The notes under the pieces were generated by a model that was not told the DNA's origin, searched no databases, and saw nothing but the letters and a program-made list of their open reading frames with translations. Made by a program: the position numbers and the translations under genes. DNA of 50,970 bases from Thiotrichaceae bacterium (GTDB lineage: Bacteria > Pseudomonadota > Gammaproteobacteria > Thiotrichales > Thiotrichaceae): positions 1 to 50,970 of the forward strand of contig JALSJU010000077.1 of NCBI GenBank assembly GCA_026989145.1. Reading direction: 5' to 3'. Below are positions 1 to 46,293 of this stretch, one piece after another. Each line of letters starts with the position of its first letter. Position 1 is the first letter of the stretch.

Positions 1-191
1 AAATTCTTTAACACTTTTAAAGCTCCATGTTAATCCTTCAGATATTTCATCTTTACCTTTCATATGGCATTAGGGTAGTGTGGATCAATAAATTCACACT
101 CATTATGAAAGAGGTTGATGATGGTCTTTTTATCCTTTACTTCAAGTGCTTTAAAAACCTCATCAACTAACTTCGATAAAAGCGTATTCAT
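1..191 (-). pseudogene. SnoaL/NTF2-like protein, frameshifted and cut by window edge
   Basis: An ATG at 191-189 opens a frame of about 42 residues ending in FIDPHYPNAI and a stop at 62-60. A second frame starting at the ATG at 63-61 continues with MKGKDEISEGLTW and runs off the window. Read together they resemble the small NTF2/SnoaL-like fold, in which a DPHYP-type stretch is followed by a short MxGxxxI segment. The frames differ by +2/-1, and the join reads ATAT, so removing one AT would give an unbroken protein. The start overlaps the regulator's TGA (ATGA), so the two genes were probably translationally coupled. The family call is from recalled sequence pattern. The break could be a real mutation or a sequencing error. 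Confidence 0.6.
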
Positions 192-1804
192 AGTGCTTGG
201 TTTGCTTTGGGTATACCTGCCGCATGGAGTGCTTGTATGAACCTTTCTCTAGGTGCTTCTTTGCACGAGAATAAGCGCTGACAAGAATCAGTCGTGCAAC
301 TGGGTAATAAACGTAATGTTTCAATCGCATATTGTTGTGCTTCGTTTTGATTTCCCGCGAGTTGATGAGTAGCAGTTGCAAGGGCAAAAACAAGAAAATA
401 TTTATTATTAAATGCTACTGCTTGATCAATCTGTGCAGCAGCAGCGCTGTATCGTTTTTGATTGATTAGGATCACAATACGAATCATGATTATGAGTAAC
501 TTATCAAAATGAGAGTAGGGCGTTATACGATCATATAAATCAAGATATTGATTGGCTAATTTATAATCATCACCTAAACGAGCAGTTATTTGGGCTTTCA
601 CTCTTAAGTTATACGGGTTATTAGGGGAAAGCTTTAGCGCATAATCAATTAGAGGTTCGGCATTTTTTACGCTGTGAAAATGGAGTGTAGCTCTGCCTAA
701 GCACATATAGCCTAACATTTCATTGGGATTAAAATCAATACAGTGTTCGGCATGGTTGATTGACTTTACCATGTCATAGTCAGTTTTTCTTATTTTACTA
801 TGATCGAGTAAACGACGGTTTGTATAAGTGTATGACAGCCATGCATGGGCACGCGCAAACCTACAGTCTTGTTTGATCGCTTGTTCAAAATAAACTTCTG
901 ATTTCGCATTATCACTTTGTGTTGGCCGATCTAAATACCATATGCCTCTATGATAATTTCCCCATGCGTTTAAATCTTCTGTGGGATTATTAAAGGCTCG
1001 TTCAATTTCTGCCTGCGTGATAGCTGAGTCTGTCGCCATTACAATAGCTTTTGTAATGTCATCTTGAAGTTGAAAAATATCATCAAATGAATAATCAAAA
1101 TGATCAGAGAATATTTCAGTATTTTGAATGGCTTCAACCACAGACAGCGTAGCTCTAATACGTGACGCAACTTGTTCAAGCTTTCCGTAGACTAAATAAC
1201 GTACCCCAAGCCGTTCTCCAACTTCTTTAGAGGATAAGTTAATATTCGATAATTGAGATGCTGAAGCTCTCGCAATAACAAGAAAATGAGGCATTTTAGC
1301 AAACGAAGCATTGATTTCAGACGTTAAGCCATAGGCTAATAAGGAGGCCTCTTGATTTTTGCTTACATCAATAAAATCCATGATTGCAATTGAAGGTTTG
1401 TCAGGGAGTAAAGGAAAGTTACTGGTTTTCTTGAGATGCTGAATGTTACTTTTATCTGCGTTATAAGCTTTTGATAATTCTAAAATATTTTTATCATGCT
1501 GATCAAAAGCTGCAATAAAACGGTAGCCAGAGCCTGATACCGTTTGGATACATTTTTGTTTTTTAGCATTATCACCAACTGCATGTCGAGCAACACTGAT
1601 ACTGGTGGTTAATGTTGCGTCAGAGATATAACGTGAACTCCAGACGTTCTGTAATAACTCATCACGTGTAATGACTCTATTTGGGTTTTCCAGCATATAG
1701 GTCAGTATTTTAAATGTTAAAGGCTCAACTTTTTGTGGGGTATCAGCGTATAGAAGCTCTTGCTTCTCTGTGTTTATTGTGTAAGTGCCAATACTATAAA
1801 TCAT
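188..1804 (-). CDS. CadC/ToxR-type winged-helix regulator with TolB-like and TPR domains
   Basis: 538 residues. Residues 1-100 form an OmpR-type winged helix (LTFKILTYMLENPNRVITRDELL, then VSGSGYRF). After a linker comes a DKPSIAIMDF segment and a FlgO/TolB-like alpha-beta domain (about 135-260), as found in adenylate-cyclase-associated CadC-like regulators. The remainder is helical TPR-type sequence. No membrane helix is visible, unlike true CadC or ToxR, so it is probably a cytoplasmic transcription factor. The ATG has a good upstream AAGGAG. The stop overlaps the next gene's start. It diverges from a surface-protein locus, and the shared spacer holds three phased direct repeats suited to OmpR-type binding, so it probably controls both sides. 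The effector is unknown. Confidence 0.85.
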   Translation of the reverse strand: MIYSIGTYTINTEKQELLYADTPQKVEPLTFKILTYMLENPNRVITRDELLQNVWSSRYISDATLTTSISVARHAVGDNAKKQKCIQTVSGSGYRFIAAFDQHDKNILELSKAYNADKSNIQHLKKTSNFPLLPDKPSIAIMDFIDVSKNQEASLLAYGLTSEINASFAKMPHFLVIARASASQLSNINLSSKEVGERLGVRYLVYGKLEQVASRIRATLSVVEAIQNTEIFSDHFDYSFDDIFQLQDDITKAIVMATDSAITQAEIERAFNNPTEDLNAWGNYHRGIWYLDRPTQSDNAKSEVYFEQAIKQDCRFARAHAWLSYTYTNRRLLDHSKIRKTDYDMVKSINHAEHCIDFNPNEMLGYMCLGRATLHFHSVKNAEPLIDYALKLSPNNPYNLRVKAQITARLGDDYKLANQYLDLYDRITPYSHFDKLLIIMIRIVILINQKRYSAAAAQIDQAVAFNNKYFLVFALATATHQLAGNQNEAQQYAIETLRLLPSCTTDSCQRLFSCKEAPRERFIQALHAAGIPKANQAL

Positions 1805-37799: not shown

Positions 37800-38627
37800 A
37801 TGCGTTTATTCAAAAGTAATAAAAACATCTTAAGAAGGATCTATAATCGTTACGCAGTTTTTTTACCGTTTATAGCCGTTTTTTCATTGGGCATATTTGG
37901 CACAAGTATTTATTATAAAAATCAACCCAGTATCACTGCAAGTCAGCAAAGCTCTAGCCTCTCCAAAGTAGAAGCGATTACGAACCAGCTTAATACCGAA
38001 AAGGATATTTCAGAAAGTCTTAGTAGTAAAAATGTTGAACTAAAGCAACGCTTAAAAGAAGCACTTAGTCAATCCGGTAATAGTATAAACGAGACGAAAG
38101 TTACCAAATTAAACAGTGACTTAGATCAAGAAAAACAAACAAATCAAAAACTTAATGATGAGAATGCTCGTTTAAAGGTTCGAATCAATAATATGCTCGC
38201 AAAAATTGAAGCAATAAAAAATAAACCTAAAATTAGCATCGCCGACTCTGAACTTGCTACACCGGTTGAGGGGGGGAGAAAAATGGCTCAAGATAATGAT
38301 ATAGGGGATGCTGAAAGTAAAAACTTTAATAAAGTTAAAATGAGCACATCAGAAAATAATGAAACTAAGGATAGTGTAAAGTCGTTAACGAATCGTAATA
38401 AAGCCGAAAAAATGCTTAACAAAGGAGAAGTTGTTAAGAAGAAAGTAGTAAAAGGTAGTAGGAAACGCACCATGAGATTAAAAAAAGGTGAGTCACTCTG
38501 GAATTTATCAAAACGTGCTTATGGTAAAGGAATTTATTATAAAAAAATTATTAAAGCCAACCCTTCATTAACCGAAAAAAGCTTTAAGCGACTCCGTCCT
38601 GGAGCGAGAATTAATGTACCACGTTGA
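37800..38627 (+). CDS. Membrane-anchored LysM protein with coiled coil
   Basis: 275 residues with AGGGGAAG upstream of the ATG. One N-terminal membrane helix (about 15-37: VFLPFIAVFSLGIFGTSIYY) after a basic cytoplasmic tail. A long coiled coil follows (about 55-145, Lys/Glu/Gln/Asn-rich), then a basic linker, and a C-terminal LysM domain (about 223-275: LKKGESLWNLSKRAYGKG, then LRPGARINVP). LysM binds peptidoglycan, so the protein should tie inner membrane to cell wall. It faces the motor-like operon, its stop 140 bp from the Omp85 gene's stop, and could be a functional partner. Confidence 0.82.
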   Translation: MRLFKSNKNILRRIYNRYAVFLPFIAVFSLGIFGTSIYYKNQPSITASQQSSSLSKVEAITNQLNTEKDISESLSSKNVELKQRLKEALSQSGNSINETKVTKLNSDLDQEKQTNQKLNDENARLKVRINNMLAKIEAIKNKPKISIADSELATPVEGGRKMAQDNDIGDAESKNFNKVKMSTSENNETKDSVKSLTNRNKAEKMLNKGEVVKKKVVKGSRKRTMRLKKGESLWNLSKRAYGKGIYYKKIIKANPSLTEKSFKRLRPGARINVPR

Positions 38628-38766: not shown

Positions 38767-40398
38767 CTAAAAAGATTTCGCAGTACTGATAGATATTTGA
38801 AATTTATCAACCGTTTGACGTTGGGTTAAGGGGATTGCTAAATTGAGATGCATCGTTTTAGAGGAGCTAGCACGGGTTGGTATCATGCGTAGCCCTATGC
38901 CGATATTGGCTGATAGTTTTGGATCTTTACTCCCTCCCCATGCGCTACCAATATCAGAGAAGGCTACAGCCCCGAACTTCACGAGGTGTAATGGGTACCA
39001 TTCGAAGTGGAGTCTTTTTTCTGCTTGTAAAAGGAATGATTTATCGCCTGTTTGGAAAGCTTTCGGAAATCCTCTCATTCCAGTATCACCTCCTAAATAT
39101 ATTCGCTCACTGGGGGTTAAGTGATCCGATGCTCTGAAAATTGCTTTTATGCGAATATCGTTTCCTGTTGATCTGAAGTGGTTTAACTCGCCTTTTAGCT
39201 GGTAATCACTGCCTTTTTTGGCTCCATTGCCTAAGTAATTATCCGTTTTTAATTCAATAAAACTTAATAGGGATTGAGTTAACTGAAAACCCTTTGAATA
39301 ATGGGTAGTTAATTTAAGTGTATTATCGGTAGATCCAAATTCTTTTAATAAAAGTCCAATGCCAAGGGTGATATTTTTAGCTAGAGCAATATCTTCGACC
39401 TTTCCCATGGTGTTGAAGTTAGTTTTTTTAATAAAATTCGTACCAAAATAATTAGTTTCAAACCACGGGTAGGATTCAATATGTCTAGTTGGTTTAAATA
39501 CTTGCGTCATACTCTTATAATTATTTTGTTTGTATGACCAGCCCACTTTAAAGCGTTGTTTCAGGTTGCTAGTGTGTTTTCCCGCCCAGCCATAATAAAG
39601 TGAATGAAGTTGTTTTTTTTCATTAATTTCTTGATCAACTTTGGCACTTTCATAAAGGGGGGTTGTTTGGGTTAAATGTGATGACTTTATTCCCCACGAA
39701 TAGCGACTATCAGATTTATAAAAAGGTAGCCCTAAATCAATATCATAACCTTTACCATCGGAGTTTTTTAGGAGATTGATCCTAAGTTTATAATGACTTC
39801 CCAATAAGTGATTATCCCGGTACGAAAGTTTAGTGGATGTTCTTTCAGATTGCTTGCTATAACCCAGCCTTAAATCTTTACCATGACCTAAAATATTTTG
39901 CTCTTGAACTTTAAAGCCGAACTTATTATTACCGCCACTTCGCCCAAAACTAATATCAGGGGTTAAAGTCCAGTTGTCACGTGTTTTCACGTTAAGGCTT
40001 ACTTGATTACCATTACATAATTCTGTTGGGATGATAGCTGCATCTTTTATATATGTTTGAGCCCGTAAATAGCGTTCTGTTTCTTTTATTTTATCTATAT
40101 TTAAAAGCTCTCCTGTTTTAAAGAGGAGTTGGCTTTGTATGGTTGTTACCTTTGTTTTGATATGAAGTTTGTTAATGATGTGGTGAACTTTTGTCGATTC
40201 ATTATCTAAGTTCAGATCAAAAATATCTAACGGAGAAATTTTGATGCGACCAACCTGGAGATTGGTTTTGTTTATAAAATGTGCTTTCCAGGGTGTGCAA
40301 TTATCTAATGAGCCCGCCTTTAATGGTGTGGATAAGGAGGCGAACAAAAAGCTACTGAGGATGAGTGTTATAACAAGCTTAAGAATGATTTTTTGCAT
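38767..40398 (-). CDS. Omp85-family outer-membrane protein with a short POTRA region
   Basis: 543 residues. Signal peptide 1-29, then a periplasmic region to about 150 with one or two POTRA-like units (LLFKTGELLNIDKIKETERYLRAQTYIKDAA), then a 16-strand-type barrel. The signature lid-loop motif is in ERIYLGGDTGMRGFP (RGF), followed by FGAVAFSDIGSAWGG, as in BamA, TamA and TpsB relatives. It is shorter than BamA (about 800), and skp, lpxD and tamB are not adjacent, so it is not BamA or TamA. It is the last gene of a six-gene operon, six bp after the metallopeptidase-like gene, and would supply the outer-membrane part of that machine. Confidence 0.85.
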   Translation of the reverse strand: MQKIILKLVITLILSSFLFASLSTPLKAGSLDNCTPWKAHFINKTNLQVGRIKISPLDIFDLNLDNESTKVHHIINKLHIKTKVTTIQSQLLFKTGELLNIDKIKETERYLRAQTYIKDAAIIPTELCNGNQVSLNVKTRDNWTLTPDISFGRSGGNNKFGFKVQEQNILGHGKDLRLGYSKQSERTSTKLSYRDNHLLGSHYKLRINLLKNSDGKGYDIDLGLPFYKSDSRYSWGIKSSHLTQTTPLYESAKVDQEINEKKQLHSLYYGWAGKHTSNLKQRFKVGWSYKQNNYKSMTQVFKPTRHIESYPWFETNYFGTNFIKKTNFNTMGKVEDIALAKNITLGIGLLLKEFGSTDNTLKLTTHYSKGFQLTQSLLSFIELKTDNYLGNGAKKGSDYQLKGELNHFRSTGNDIRIKAIFRASDHLTPSERIYLGGDTGMRGFPKAFQTGDKSFLLQAEKRLHFEWYPLHLVKFGAVAFSDIGSAWGGSKDPKLSANIGIGLRMIPTRASSSKTMHLNLAIPLTQRQTVDKFQISISTAKSF

Positions 40399-40404
40399 AG
40401 ACTG

Positions 40405-42282
40405 TTAAATAGAAAAACGTAAATCAGGCACTTCACGCTCAAACAATGCTTCAAAGGCGCGCTTTGCAAGCTCACGAATTTGCGGTGTTTTAAGGTCTAT
40501 AAGTGATTTGTAAATCGCCGTTTTTTTATCAATACTCAATGTATAAGTAGGCTGTTTGATAGCGACACCTAAACGTAGAGACTCCATCGTGTCTAAAATT
40601 AAACTGGAGGCATAGTATTCGGCTTGTCCCTTAGTCATTGGGTTGAGCGAGAAAATTAATAATTTACTGAGCCAAATATTATGTGCCTGCTCAGTATTGG
40701 CAAGTTGTGAAAGGTAGGCGCCGAGCTCTTCCATCGTATGCTCAGTGCCACTTTCGGTCAGCTCATCGTTAAAGGTTTTGGCCAGCCAAGCTGGTGTTTT
40801 CCAGTGTTTTTTATCAATTTGGTGATAGGCTTCGTGGAGTTCGATGCTGGGCAACAATACCGTATTGAGTTTATTGAGGAGCGCATATTCATCATTACTA
40901 ATTTTGTTTCTTTCTGCTAGGGAAGCATTTTTTTTATCTTTATTGGCTTTATTGAGTAAGACACTAATAGCATCCAAACCACCACCAAAAATATTTTCTT
41001 CATTGACGCTACTGTTTTGTTCCAGTGTTTGTTTCATCTTGGCATTTTGTAAGCGTTTTTTATTTTTGATTAGTTTTTTAATGGCTTTTTTTACTCGACG
41101 ACGTTCTGATTTATTGGCATAGATAGCATCCAAGTCTTGTTTGTAACCTTTGCTTATTGCCTCTTCAATTTCGTAATAACCTTGCATCCAATACGGGATG
41201 ATGTAGTTTCTGCCTTGAAAGGTGAGAGCAGGGAGTATTGACTCATCGGAAAAGTTTTTAATCCGCTCCATGAGTAAAATTGAGCCGAGTCCTTTGCCTT
41301 TAAAGGTAAGCCCTAGCGCGCTATCTACTGCCGGTACTTTATCAACACGACTGACTTGGAATAGTGGTAGCTCCGTTTCGAGAGTTTTACCTTTGGCATC
41401 AGCATGTTTATAAAATAGTGCATTACGTTTAGCTACTTTGTACACCGTCATCATGGTGGTGCGGCATAATTCTGGTTTACCATCACTCATCAGCTCTTCC
41501 ATTTTTTTCAGCATCATCATTTGTTCAACAGGTGCATCGATTAATGATGAGCAGGGCATAGAGAATGACTTTGGGGTTAAATAATAGGGTAAGCCTTTTT
41601 TATCAAATAAAGTATTGACCGATTTAAAGCCAAGCATTATGTCGCCACCTGATACATGCCGGTCGCTTAGTTTGTCTAATTGCTTAGCGATGTTATCGCG
41701 TATTCCGTCTTTTTCAGGTAGGTCTGCGAGAATTTTTTGTCGTGTTTTTCTGAGAGTTTCATCAAGGTTTGTTTGTAGTTTGGTATTGCCATTATTATGT
41801 TTTAATAATAGTTTCCGGTGTAATAAGTCGGAATAATAGGGTAAGTAATTAGCCAAAACATTTTCTATTTTACGTTGTTGATACCATTGATTAAGGGTAT
41901 AGCTGCCGAAAATTAGGCTGGCAATTAACGCGGGGTAGATTAAATATGCTTTAAAGCCGAGACTAAACAGGTTTAAAAACGGGGTTTTAACGGCTGGTGT
42001 TTCACGCTTAGCATGAGCAGCTTTGCTTGATTGTTTACTTCCCAAAAGTTGTTGAATTAAGGATTCTTTAAAATCTATATAAGTGACTGGGTAGATTCTT
42101 TTTTTACGAAAACGGGCTAATACCGTTTGTTTTTGCTTTAAGTAGCGTAATGATAGCAAGTAACGTATTGGATAAATCCAGCCTTTGTAGGTGCTGGCCT
42201 TTTCAAAGTCATCACTCGTCATTGCTCTTACAGCAGGGGTGTCGCCTTTTAGTAGCTCTTTTAACAATAACTTATTCAACAT
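40405..42282 (-). CDS. Membrane-anchored putative metallopeptidase (HEXXH) of the motor operon
   Basis: 625 residues from the ATG at 42282, two bp past the upstream stop, with AGGA upstream. A GTG at 42303 would overlap the previous gene. A basic cytoplasmic N-terminus (1-109) and one membrane helix (about 110-130) leave some 490 residues in the periplasm. These include HEAYHQID (residues 483-490) and, about 30 residues on, EELGAYLSQLA (Glu518/519). HEXXH with a downstream Glu is the gluzincin zinc-site pattern, so I infer a periplasmic zinc peptidase. I recognise no named family. A Lys/Arg-rich stretch lies near 395-425. Whether the site is active is unknown. Confidence 0.6.
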   Translation of the reverse strand: MLNKLLLKELLKGDTPAVRAMTSDDFEKASTYKGWIYPIRYLLSLRYLKQKQTVLARFRKKRIYPVTYIDFKESLIQQLLGSKQSSKAAHAKRETPAVKTPFLNLFSLGFKAYLIYPALIASLIFGSYTLNQWYQQRKIENVLANYLPYYSDLLHRKLLLKHNNGNTKLQTNLDETLRKTRQKILADLPEKDGIRDNIAKQLDKLSDRHVSGGDIMLGFKSVNTLFDKKGLPYYLTPKSFSMPCSSLIDAPVEQMMMLKKMEELMSDGKPELCRTTMMTVYKVAKRNALFYKHADAKGKTLETELPLFQVSRVDKVPAVDSALGLTFKGKGLGSILLMERIKNFSDESILPALTFQGRNYIIPYWMQGYYEIEEAISKGYKQDLDAIYANKSERRRVKKAIKKLIKNKKRLQNAKMKQTLEQNSSVNEENIFGGGLDAISVLLNKANKDKKNASLAERNKISNDEYALLNKLNTVLLPSIELHEAYHQIDKKHWKTPAWLAKTFNDELTESGTEHTMEELGAYLSQLANTEQAHNIWLSKLLIFSLNPMTKGQAEYYASSLILDTMESLRLGVAIKQPTYTLSIDKKTAIYKSLIDLKTPQIRELAKRAFEALFEREVPDLRFSI

Positions 42283-42284
42283 AA

Positions 42285-43919
42285 TTATTTTTCCTGTAAC
42301 CACTTTTTAACGATTTTAGTCCGTGAGATACGGTCATTGTTTGGTATTTCGACGTAACAATCAGCAAGGTCGACCATTTTTATTGCTTGTTGACGAATAT
42401 CAGGGTCATTGATTGAGTCGTCCAGTCCACGCTTAAAGCCGCTCCAATCCCAGCCACAAATATATTCTGGCATTAGTTTAAAACGACTGGCGATATTATT
42501 TAAAGTGATTTTAGCCTTATTAAATTGCTTGTTTTGTAAGTAATAAATCGTCACAAGAGTATCTTTTATTTGCTTATAACCATCGGTTAAACGCCCGCTA
42601 GAGTTAATGTCTTGGAGTAGTGACTCAAAAGTCTCGTTATCAATATTGGCGGTGACGTAGGTTTCTAACAGGTCGAGATCAATTTCACCGGCAACTTCTA
42701 GCACAGTTGGTGTTTTCTTTTTGATACGTTTCAATATGTTACGGGCTTTTTCTAATTCGTTTGTAGCGGTTGCTAAATCATTAAAATACAGCCATGCCAA
42801 CGCGCCAGACTCACGGTGACGAGAAGCGACATAGGCGGGGCTGAAATCGTTATTTTTTTCAATGTAGTTGGTGGCTTCTTGAAAACATTGGTAAGACGTT
42901 TCAGCCTTATTAGTGTCACCCGCATGATGGTTGATGGCAGTAAGATACCAGTACACGCTATTGATGTAGCCTGCGTCACCGGTACATTGTAGTTTACGTG
43001 CATGTTCTATAGTTTTTTCTACGTTTTTGGTGCGATAAAAACACTCAACCGCAAAATCTTCTAAATCGGCTTTAATACGGCTTTCTGATTCTCGCCATTG
43101 TAGCTGTTCGCCGATACTTCTAATTGATGATTCAATTTTCTCGCAATCTTGCTCATTTTCTAAAATGGAGCGATACGCTTCCATCAGTAATACGACTTCT
43201 TTACGACGTTCGCCCGGCGCATTGGGGATGTCTTTCGCCGGGCAACTAATCGCAGCTTCTTTGGAGCACTGGAACAGCGGTTGGCCGTTTTTGTTTTTTG
43301 CATCCTTATTGTTTTTAGCATTTTGCTGGTCACGCTTCATTTTTTGAATCGCATCTTCGCGCATTAACGATTGCATAAACTCCATTGGTGACTGTTTGTT
43401 GCTGGCTTGACGGCTAAAGTCAAAAGACAATTCAGGGTTTTGTTTTTGCAAGGTGGTAATAATTTGTACCATTTGCTGTTTGGCTAACCATTCGGTAAAG
43501 GCAAATTTTTCAGGGTTGGCTTCTTCAGGAATAGGTTCAGGCTCTGCTAAAGTGTTCCATAAAGCTGTGGCGATTAGTGCCATCGCTAACAAGGGTAACA
43601 GGGTGACTAACAATAACTTTTTGCGGGTATGGCTACGGGCTTTTTTGAGTCGATTTTCTAAAGCGAGTGAGCGTTGTTCGGTTTTAGCATGGGTCGCTTG
43701 TACCACATCTTTATAACTGCTATTTGCGGCATCTAGTTCACCTAAATGGCGCTGAATTTCTGCAATATTATAAATTAGTTCTGGGTTTTCAGGATCATTG
43801 TTTAGCTTGTTTTGCGCATGGCTTAACAAGTCTTCTAAAGATGTATTCGGTGCGAGATTCCAGTTGGCCTTTAATAAGCGAAAAGGGGCTTTTACATTGT
43901 TTTTCTTGTTGTTTGGCAT
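42285..43919 (-). CDS. TPR-containing single-pass membrane protein of the motor operon
   Basis: 544 residues. Residues 1-98 are cytoplasmic with a TPR-like pair (NPELIYNIAEIQRHLGELDAA). A membrane helix follows at 101-121 (KLLLVTLLPLLAMALIATAL). The periplasmic remainder is helical with TPR-like spacing and several Cys (FQCSKEAAISCPAKD, ENEQDCEK). I recognise no enzyme motif. It lies four bp after the ExbD-like gene and three bp before the metallopeptidase-like gene, so it is probably a structural scaffold bridging the membrane complex to periplasmic partners. Confidence 0.7.
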   Translation of the reverse strand: MPNNKKNNVKAPFRLLKANWNLAPNTSLEDLLSHAQNKLNNDPENPELIYNIAEIQRHLGELDAANSSYKDVVQATHAKTEQRSLALENRLKKARSHTRKKLLLVTLLPLLAMALIATALWNTLAEPEPIPEEANPEKFAFTEWLAKQQMVQIITTLQKQNPELSFDFSRQASNKQSPMEFMQSLMREDAIQKMKRDQQNAKNNKDAKNKNGQPLFQCSKEAAISCPAKDIPNAPGERRKEVVLLMEAYRSILENEQDCEKIESSIRSIGEQLQWRESESRIKADLEDFAVECFYRTKNVEKTIEHARKLQCTGDAGYINSVYWYLTAINHHAGDTNKAETSYQCFQEATNYIEKNNDFSPAYVASRHRESGALAWLYFNDLATATNELEKARNILKRIKKKTPTVLEVAGEIDLDLLETYVTANIDNETFESLLQDINSSGRLTDGYKQIKDTLVTIYYLQNKQFNKAKITLNNIASRFKLMPEYICGWDWSGFKRGLDDSINDPDIRQQAIKMVDLADCYVEIPNNDRISRTKIVKKWLQEK

Positions 43920-43923
43920 ATGC

Positions 43924-44553
43924 TTATTGGCTCCCTAAATAGGAGGGTAAATAGGCACAGCGTGGGCTAAAGCTTCGGTCGCAAATATGTGTCGGTGCTT
44001 CGCTGTTCACGGGTTGCCAGCCGGTTTTTATGGCGCGCGTTTTAAGGTATTCTCGGGCCTTGCGAAATGCTTCAAAACCACTCCCAATGGCAGCGCCGTT
44101 TTCACTACTATCATAGACAAAAAAGTAAGCAAAATGTGTTTTAGGGTTGATGCTATCAAGTTTTTGACGAAGTTTAGATTGGCGTTTGTCTATGTCTTGA
44201 AATGGGTCCCATTCGGTGGTGTCACGGGCGTAAAATGAAATGCCATTGTCTTGATCAATTTTGCCGAGCAAACCAGAGTAATCTAATGGAAACAGGCGTT
44301 TATTGGCGGCAGCTCCATTGGTTGCTTGCAACGTGGCATTGGCAAACAATTTATCTGTGTCCATTTGCAATAAGTGATCATCTTTACTGATAAAAAATAC
44401 TGGGCTTAATTCCGTCGCATGTTCAATGGGGATCTCGAGTTGATAGGTCTTGTTGTCATCGTGAATCAGGTTAATCACGGCAAAAATAATTAGAATACCA
44501 ACAGAATTCGATACGATATCAGTTAATGAGTCTAGGCTGATGAGGTCTTTCAT
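43924..44553 (-). CDS. ExbD-like one-helix protein keeping the membrane Asp
   Basis: 209 residues. The only membrane helix is at the extreme N-terminus (about 8-30: SLDSLTDIVSNSVGILIIFA). Aligned with ExbD/TolR (xxTPFIDVMLVLLIIFM), Asp12 falls on the proton-carrying Asp. The rest is periplasmic and lacks an OmpA peptidoglycan-binding domain. A Cys pair (HICDRSFSPRC) ends the protein. It overlaps the preceding ExbD-like gene by four bases, so the two are translationally coupled and probably form a hetero-oligomer in the channel. Confidence 0.7.
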   Translation of the reverse strand: MKDLISLDSLTDIVSNSVGILIIFAVINLIHDDNKTYQLEIPIEHATELSPVFFISKDDHLLQMDTDKLFANATLQATNGAAANKRLFPLDYSGLLGKIDQDNGISFYARDTTEWDPFQDIDKRQSKLRQKLDSINPKTHFAYFFVYDSSENGAAIGSGFEAFRKAREYLKTRAIKTGWQPVNSEAPTHICDRSFSPRCAYLPSYLGSQ

Positions 44554-45176
44554 TGGCTTGCCTTGTTAAGCTTGTTTAAGTTTAACGTCCAGTTGGAATC
44601 TAAGGGCTCTAGCCCTACGCTAATCGCGCGTGAATCTTCGGTTAAGGTCATTACATCACGTACTTTTTGATATGCTTGGCCACCGTTGGGGTAAATACCA
44701 AATAATAAAAACTCTTCGTAAAGATAATTCGCGCGTAAAGCAATTTCATTAAGTGAACGTATATTTCGCATAATATTCAGCACGTTATCAATATCAGGGT
44801 CTTTGGCAAGTGCCATTACAGTACCCGTATGATTTTCCAGTTTTTTTAGCTGGCTTTCGCGTTGTAGAATAATAGTCTCAATGGTGTCTTTATCATCATC
44901 GTTGTTTGTCGCTGTTTGTAGCTTTCGCAGGTATTTTGTTGGCGGTACGCTAATAATGCCATCGGGTAGGTTAAAAATTTGGTAGGCAACTTTGTAACCA
45001 GTTTCGAGTTGCGCCGTTAGCTCTATTTTTTGTGGCGCACTAAAACTGCTGAGTACATTGATAAACGACAGTACCCCCATGACACACAGAAAAATACTCA
45101 AAAACGGGAATAGGCTAATCTCTAGCTTATCTTGCTGGTTGTATAAAGCGTATCGTTTTGCGCGGGAAAGAGCCAT
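44550..45176 (-). CDS. ExbD-like one-helix protein with Ser in place of the membrane Asp
   Basis: 208 residues. A short basic cytoplasmic start, then one helix (about 19-42: EISLFPFLSIFLCVMGVLSF). The segment EISLFPFLS lines up with ExbD's DINVTPFID, but Ser27 stands where the catalytic Asp would be. The periplasmic part has a coiled-coil-like stretch and a helical end. It is the first of two coupled ExbD-like genes after the channel gene. The Asp-less subunit may be structural or set stoichiometry, with proton transfer left to its partner. 106 bp without a gene separate it from the channel gene. Confidence 0.68.
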   Translation of the reverse strand: MALSRAKRYALYNQQDKLEISLFPFLSIFLCVMGVLSFINVLSSFSAPQKIELTAQLETGYKVAYQIFNLPDGIISVPPTKYLRKLQTATNNDDDKDTIETIILQRESQLKKLENHTGTVMALAKDPDIDNVLNIMRNIRSLNEIALRANYLYEEFLLFGIYPNGGQAYQKVRDVMTLTEDSRAISVGLEPLDSNWTLNLNKLNKASQ

Positions 45177-45282: not shown

Positions 45283-46293
45283 TTACTTGGTGAATGACTT
45301 TTTGTTTTCAATTTTTGCGGTAAACACTGTTTCATACAAGTCTTCCATGGTTTCTTGCAGTGCTTTGACTTGGGTACCGAGTTGCTTGATTTCAATTGCT
45401 ACTTGTTTTGAGCTATCAGCTGTTACGTTATTATTGCTCGTACCTGATGTTAATACCCCTGATGTCGCTGTTGTAGCGTGCGCTACAAAGCCTTTTTCTT
45501 GCAATGCAGGTTTGATTTCATGAAACCAGCGTTCATCCAAGTCAATTAAATAGGCTTCTTCAGATTTCTCAAGCGTAAGCATTAACATCATTAAGGGAAT
45601 GCTCAATAAAAGTGCTAATAAAGTTGTATCAAATGCAGTAGCAAGTGAGTTAGTTACTAACGGTAAGTTTTCTTTTAGCATGGTAGATACGTCGGTAACG
45701 GATCCTGTGTTAGTCATGGCGTCGGAGAAGTGTGCGATACCGTTACTGATGCCCCAAACGGTGCCGATAAAACCTAAAATTGGGATTGCCCAAATCATAA
45801 AGCGGGGCAGGGCGAATGAGCCTTTTAATTGCTCTTTTTCCTTTATTCCAAAGCCATCATCAACTTCGCTGTCATTGTGGTTTAAAAATAGAAATAGACG
45901 GGTAATGAGTAAATTATTATCAGCAACACCTTCCGATTCTGCCTTTGTTAAAAGGTTCTTATTGAGCTCAATTTTGTCATCTGTAGCTTCAGCTATGAGT
46001 GATGGAAAGATGGTTTTTGATAGATTTTGACTTTGCGCTTGTTCTTTTATTAGTTTGCCTTTTTTAAGCCACAAATGAAAAAAACTGGCACAAAAAAACC
46101 ATAGAATAATGGGTGAGATCCAATTGCCAAAAAATAACTTAAATGCGCGTGGCATATTGGTTGAATCACCCATAAACCAATATAAGGCTAAGGAAGGCAA
46201 TAAAACCAACAGTGCGGTAATGATTAAAGGGGACTTAAACGCTTGTTCAACTGGGTAAATTGTCGTTGGCGTGGTGTTTAGTGGTTGGGTCAC
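45283..46293 (-). CDS. MotA/TolQ/ExbB-type proton-channel protein
   Basis: 336 residues with four membrane helices: about 18-40, 55-75, 165-190 and 215-240. The last two carry the family signature: FMIWAIPILGFIGTVWGISNGI and LATAFDTTLLALLLSIPLMM, matching the proton-path helices of ExbB, TolQ and MotA. The cytoplasmic loop between helices 2 and 3 is about 85 residues. A C-terminal coiled coil (IEIKQLGTQVKALQETMEDL) follows. It would form the pentameric channel around the ExbD-like helices and turn the proton motive force into movement. First gene of the operon. Confidence 0.88.
   Translation of the reverse strand: MTQPLNTTPTTIYPVEQAFKSPLIITALLVLLPSLALYWFMGDSTNMPRAFKLFFGNWISPIILWFFCASFFHLWLKKGKLIKEQAQSQNLSKTIFPSLIAEATDDKIELNKNLLTKAESEGVADNNLLITRLFLFLNHNDSEVDDGFGIKEKEQLKGSFALPRFMIWAIPILGFIGTVWGISNGIAHFSDAMTNTGSVTDVSTMLKENLPLVTNSLATAFDTTLLALLLSIPLMMLMLTLEKSEEAYLIDLDERWFHEIKPALQEKGFVAHATTATSGVLTSGTSNNNVTADSSKQVAIEIKQLGTQVKALQETMEDLYETVFTAKIENKKSFTK

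Follow-up and report, generated by a model that had tools for sequence, protein, structure and literature searches.

Short bacterial dipeptidyl peptidases III (DPP III, peptidase family M49) are, in predicted fold, among the described proteins closest to the one reported here. The enzyme of Caldithrix has the motif HEISH and binds zinc through H379, H383 and the second Glu of EECKAD, and that of Corallococcus, with HELMH and EEAKAD, binds zinc as well (PMC5805324, PMC9820243). PolE and the DUF6421 proteins show structural homology with DPP III and are Fe/pterin-dependent oxidases; PolE is without the HExxGH motif and the catalytic His of DPP III, and the metal motif of DUF6421 is HE/DxxH-x(21-23)-E (PMC12614342). 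The DPP III fold has so far been found in soluble dipeptidyl peptidases and, recently, in these oxidases. The locus described below also contains genes related to the proton-driven motors of Tol, ExbBD, Zorya and Agl type, a family whose outputs are a live question.

We analysed a window of 50,970 nucleotides from a Thiotrichaceae bacterium. A minus-strand gene at 40405..42282, running from an ATG at 42282 to a stop at 40405, encodes a protein of 625 aa, here called the HExxH protein, and an alternative GTG start at 42303 would give 7 aa more. Scans of this protein against Pfam and NCBIfam, and of all 21 homologues against Pfam, returned scattered chance matches only, and PDB sequence searches with the protein and its profile matched no sequence family. 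A PADLOC match to DndG (E 0.0007) was rejected, as only one of the 21 members had it.

Each full-length homologue has one hydrophobic segment, near residues 108-130 in window numbering and roughly 90-130 residues into the protein. For the window protein the score of this segment, 1.58, is borderline; every other full-length row scores higher. In most rows the 30 residues that precede the segment are more basic than the ones that follow, and alignment of the homologues showed that C244 and C273, which lie beyond it, are invariant. This combination of span, charge bias and invariant Cys fits a cytoplasmic N-terminus (1 to ~107), a membrane span (~108-130) and a predicted periplasmic DPP III-like domain (~131-625), in agreement with the sequence-only reading, which had already placed the domain in the periplasm.

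The same reading had pointed to HEAYHQID and a downstream Glu of EELGAYL in the ORF 40405-42282, and both were confirmed. HEAYHQID begins at residue 483, with HEAYH at residues 483-487 (40822..40836, minus strand); EELGAYL occupies residues 518-524, and its E518-E519 (40726..40731, minus strand) is proposed to provide the third metal ligand, E519 being the candidate in view of the role of the second EECKAD Glu in Caldithrix DPP III. Since 0.01 HExxH motifs are expected by composition per protein of this kind, the motif alone is weak evidence genome-wide and conservation decides. H483, E484, H487, E518 and E519 were identical in 21 of 21 homologues, in an alignment that goes down to 40% identity, so the proposed His and Glu residues passed the conservation check; H483, E484 and H487 are thus invariant throughout. 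Among the ten His of the window protein, only H483, H487 and H155 (20 of 20 rows) are fully conserved. Counted from the second His, E518 is at +31 and E519 at +32 in the window protein, and in some homologues the distance to E519 is 31. The Asp three residues past the second His (D490), once taken as a mark of a real site, is not conserved, with E, N or V replacing it in some homologues.

Two models were made: one with AlphaFold2 for the window protein from 21 sequences (mean pLDDT 74.8, pTM 0.66), and one with AlphaFold for the periplasmic domain of the Leucothrix arctica homologue (pLDDT 81.0, pTM 0.79, with ~90-96 in the site region); they have most of their alignment in common and are not fully independent. 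In the first model helix 463-488 ends with HExxH and the EE pair is on helix 510-529. In the second, H346-H350 is at the end of helix 329-351, E380-E381 is on helix 372-391, and five strands precede the site helices. The HExxH and the Glu pair are thus predicted on successive helices, consistently in the two models. The suspected gluzincin site is supported by its conserved His and Glu residues and consistent with their modelled helix placement; its Asp is not upheld.

Through structural comparison with VIA-align, the top match of the window model was Corallococcus DPP III, 5zum_B (Z 10.8, rmsd 5.6, 297 aligned, range 129..617). The same chain was the top match of the L. arctica model (Z 10.7, rmsd 5.5, 295 aligned), for which DPP III and PolE entries filled ranks 1-14 and the first unrelated chain came next, at Z 6.5. 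With both models these two groups formed the leading block of matches: PolE scored Z 8.8-10.6 and Caldithrix DPP III 6eom Z 9.3-9.7, and other DPP III entries went down to Z ~6. Unrelated chains scored ~6. The rmsd was 5-5.6, and by the tool's own warning a Z of ~10 for a mostly helical model may reflect a common arrangement. Foldseek returned DPP III at E 0.06 for the first model, with no match below E 0.06, and DPP III was not among the best 50 matches listed for the second. A two-lobed fold with a five-stranded barrel in the lower lobe may be indicated by the Z scores of 10.8 and 10.7 and by the five strands of the second model, with rmsd above 5 and weak Foldseek matches. On these models, a DPP III/PolE-like fold of the periplasmic domain is likely. 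The sequence had brought no named peptidase family to mind; by predicted fold, DPP III/M49 and the related PolE/DUF6421 emerge.

The HExxH gene is the last of five, in the order MotA/ExbB-like, ExbD-like 1, ExbD-like 2, TPR protein and HExxH protein, all on the minus strand. The first (45283..46293) encodes a proton channel subunit of the MotA/TolQ/ExbB family (PF01618, E 8.4e-7). ExbD-like protein 1 (ExbD1, 44550..45176) and ExbD-like protein 2 (ExbD2, 43924..44553) have one N-terminal span each, with invariant Ser27 in the former and invariant Asp12 in the latter, and profile alignments, which are not significant, place both residues at the position of the ExbD/TolR channel Asp. Should the two proteins pair, the pair would be asymmetric. 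The TPR partner (42285..43919) has a cytoplasmic TPR part, a span at 102-120 and a Cys-rich periplasmic domain with invariant Cys, and wherever a locus extends far enough to tell, its gene adjoins the HExxH gene. The genome also has canonical TolR- and ExbD-type genes apart from these. Directly downstream of the HExxH gene, 38767-40398 encodes an Omp85-family protein with one weak POTRA match. It was considered as a member of the set and rejected, as relatives keep Omp85 elsewhere, and it probably does not belong there; genomes G010 and G015 have the Omp85 gene and no HExxH gene. Beyond it, on the opposite strand, 37800-38627 encodes a LysM-domain protein (LysM match E 1.5e-5).

The MotA-like protein matched ZorA models in six of eight members, and among the operon proteins there was no consistent match to the Zorya partners ZorB, ZorC or ZorD; a Zorya anti-phage system was rejected on this pattern. 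A gliding role by analogy with AglRQS was considered as well, and a literature search found nothing specific to it.

Homologues of the HExxH protein were found in the genus of the window and in other, related genera of its family, with Cocleimonas, Leucothrix and Thiotrichaceae MAGs as named hosts. Among the remaining 368 genomes sampled from the class there was no HExxH homologue, and among the remaining 397 sampled from the phylum no ExbD2. One weak match (L020 in G013) was rejected, since it lacks HExxH and its alignment is partial and coiled-coil-like. The HExxH gene is present in 17 of 57 genomes, and all 17 carry ExbD1 and ExbD2, a co-occurrence confounded by phylogeny; because the genomes are related, we do not take the Fisher test on it as proof. 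Two more genomes, both fragmented assemblies, have ExbD1 and ExbD2 without the HExxH gene. In G004 and G010 the HExxH, ExbD1 and ExbD2 genes are all absent, and in one genus (g3) only one of four sampled genomes has them, so that presence and absence coincide in at least two parts of the family.

The Cocleimonas group has all five genes side by side. In Leucothrix the TPR-HExxH pair stands apart from the three motor genes, and in one complete Leucothrix genome it is ~9 kb from them and convergent. One complete genome of the Leucothrix group has, beside the motor genes, a gene judged by eye to encode a putative D-Ala-D-Ala carboxypeptidase (L113, 18295-19776). The assembly of the window contains a second MotA-ExbD1-ExbD2 set (L112, G000:C7:1-6480), whose contig ends inside the TPR gene; its ExbD1 and ExbD2 are 75% and 73% identical to those of the window, and it may be a second copy or contamination. 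A MAG labelled Aquificaceae has Thiotrichaceae-like TPR and HExxH genes (L033), probably by a binning error.

Genomes with the HExxH gene always carry ExbB/ExbD-type motor genes, which suggests a motor-coupled envelope enzyme. Our main reading, to which we give a probability of about one half, is a periplasmic gluzincin-type peptidase of sulfur bacteria, anchored in the inner membrane and of DPP III-like two-lobed fold, that would be the effector of a complex of the TPR protein with the MotA/ExbB-ExbD1-ExbD2 motor. H483, H487 and E519 would bind a metal, most likely zinc, E484 would be the general base, and the enzyme would cleave a peptide or protein of the envelope. The motor, driven by the proton motive force, and its TPR partner might load, position or gate the enzyme. 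Five-residue conservation, the predicted fold class (of moderate strength), the topology signature, gene linkage and co-occurrence were computed; we infer the metal, the substrate, that the chemistry is that of a peptidase, and that enzyme and motor are physically coupled. We might speculate further on a five-protein envelope machine, found only in the Cocleimonas/Leucothrix group, whose proton-driven motor, with its asymmetric ExbD pair, would power through the TPR adaptor a periplasmic metalloenzyme of DPP III fold acting as a peptidase; this is a tentative proposal, and we know of no described system with motor-peptidase coupling.

HEAYH agrees with the M49 zinc motif HExxGH/HExxH, in which the pentapeptide form is accepted, and four gammaproteobacterial M49 proteins have HEVAH and EEGKAD. 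The distance from the second His to the second Glu is 29 in Caldithrix, 30 in Corallococcus and 31-32 in the HExxH protein and its homologues. In the second M49 motif, EE.[RK]A[DE], EELGAY retains EExxA, without the basic residue and the final acid. With E values up to 1 allowed, the window protein had no match to Pfam Peptidase_M49, which was also absent from the families matched by the 21 members. Comparison of the HExxH family with M49 profiles by hhalign gave a probability below 1%; the best sub-domain alignment, not significant at E 0.4, placed HEAYH on HEVAH and EE on EE. N332-L333-P334-N335 and H469 are invariant in six M49 proteins. Looking by eye at the sequences of the 21 HExxH homologues, where coordinates do not anchor the register, we saw neither an NxPN-type segment nor, past E519, a fully conserved His that could be the catalytic one. 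Because the NLPN motif and the catalytic His were not seen, we regard the HExxH protein as DPP III-like in fold and not as a member of M49; that it acts like a DPP III-type gluzincin is plausible.

The missing NLPN motif and M49 catalytic His could also mean that the protein serves the motor complex as a scaffold, catalytically dead or non-proteolytic, that binds metal for structure or sensing; the other proteins of the set are non-enzymatic membrane proteins. Catalytically dead members usually lose the general-base Glu, however, and here the proposed base E484 is invariant along with the ligands, so we consider a scaffold rather unlikely.

The absence of sequence support for M49 would likewise suit some other gluzincin peptidase of clan MA, whose helices merely resemble those of DPP III and which is neither specially related to M49 nor functionally tied to the motor; M1 aminopeptidases aligned over the catalytic part at Z 4.0-4.7 (VIA-align). 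Against such a lineage, the DPP III and PolE matches span the whole domain and are clear of the rest in two models, and the motor genes co-occur, and we think it unlikely.

A site that binds iron and catalyses oxidation, as in the Fe/pterin-dependent DUF6421 enzymes, must be weighed too, since PolE structures, at Z 8.8-10.6, are tied with DPP III and the matches cover about three quarters of the PolE chain. However, we know of no periplasmic supply of reduced pterin, and the EExxA doublet matches M49. The fold score does not tell DPP III and PolE apart, but the spacing argues against PolE-like chemistry: there are 30-31 residues between the second His and E519, and 29-30 to E518, against 21-23 in DUF6421 (PMC12614342). 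PolE, too, lacks HExxGH and the DPP III catalytic His (PMC12614342), but on balance we hold oxidase chemistry to be improbable. A chance HExxH in an uncharacterised structural protein, a motif common enough across a proteome at 0.01 per protein, is very improbable and largely refuted by the conservation of five residues in 21 homologues down to 40% identity.

We return to the motor-linked gluzincin peptidase as the preferred reading. If it is true, the DPP III fold extends to a membrane-anchored envelope protein and is joined to the proton-driven motor family. The HExxH gene is carried by cultured hosts, Cocleimonas flava and Leucothrix, in which its removal is possible in principle. The HExxH protein is probably a variant of a known fold class, restricted to one lineage, and we found no description of the motor-linked gene set to which it belongs.

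Compared with known motors, the gene set resembles TolQ/TolR, ExbB/ExbD, ZorA/ZorB and AglRQS; its one MotA/ExbB-family subunit with two single-span ExbD-like proteins is matched by AglR with AglQ and AglS. It differs from them in that no TonB, TolA, ZorC or ZorD was found in it, in the Ser that one ExbD-like protein has for the channel Asp, and in its partners, a TPR protein and a DPP III-like protein. With PolE/DUF6421 the HExxH protein probably shares its predicted fold (Z 8.8-10.6), and like them it has an HExxH...E site and lacks the DPP III catalytic His; it differs in its membrane anchor and predicted periplasmic domain and has no Pfam-level sequence similarity to them, and in EExxA and spacing it is like HExxH-type M49 and unlike PolE. 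With the DPP III of Caldithrix abyssi (6eom) and Corallococcus (5zum) it probably has in common a fold that, as predicted, takes in all of the periplasmic domain (Z 9.3-10.8), and with short bacterial M49 in general it shares the HExxH pentapeptide, the EExxA doublet and a similar spacing. Unlike those enzymes it shows no detectable M49 sequence similarity, no NLPN motif and no catalytic His that we could find, has EELGAY in place of EE.[RK]A[DE], and adds a membrane anchor, an N-terminal cytoplasmic part and an operon with TPR and motor genes.
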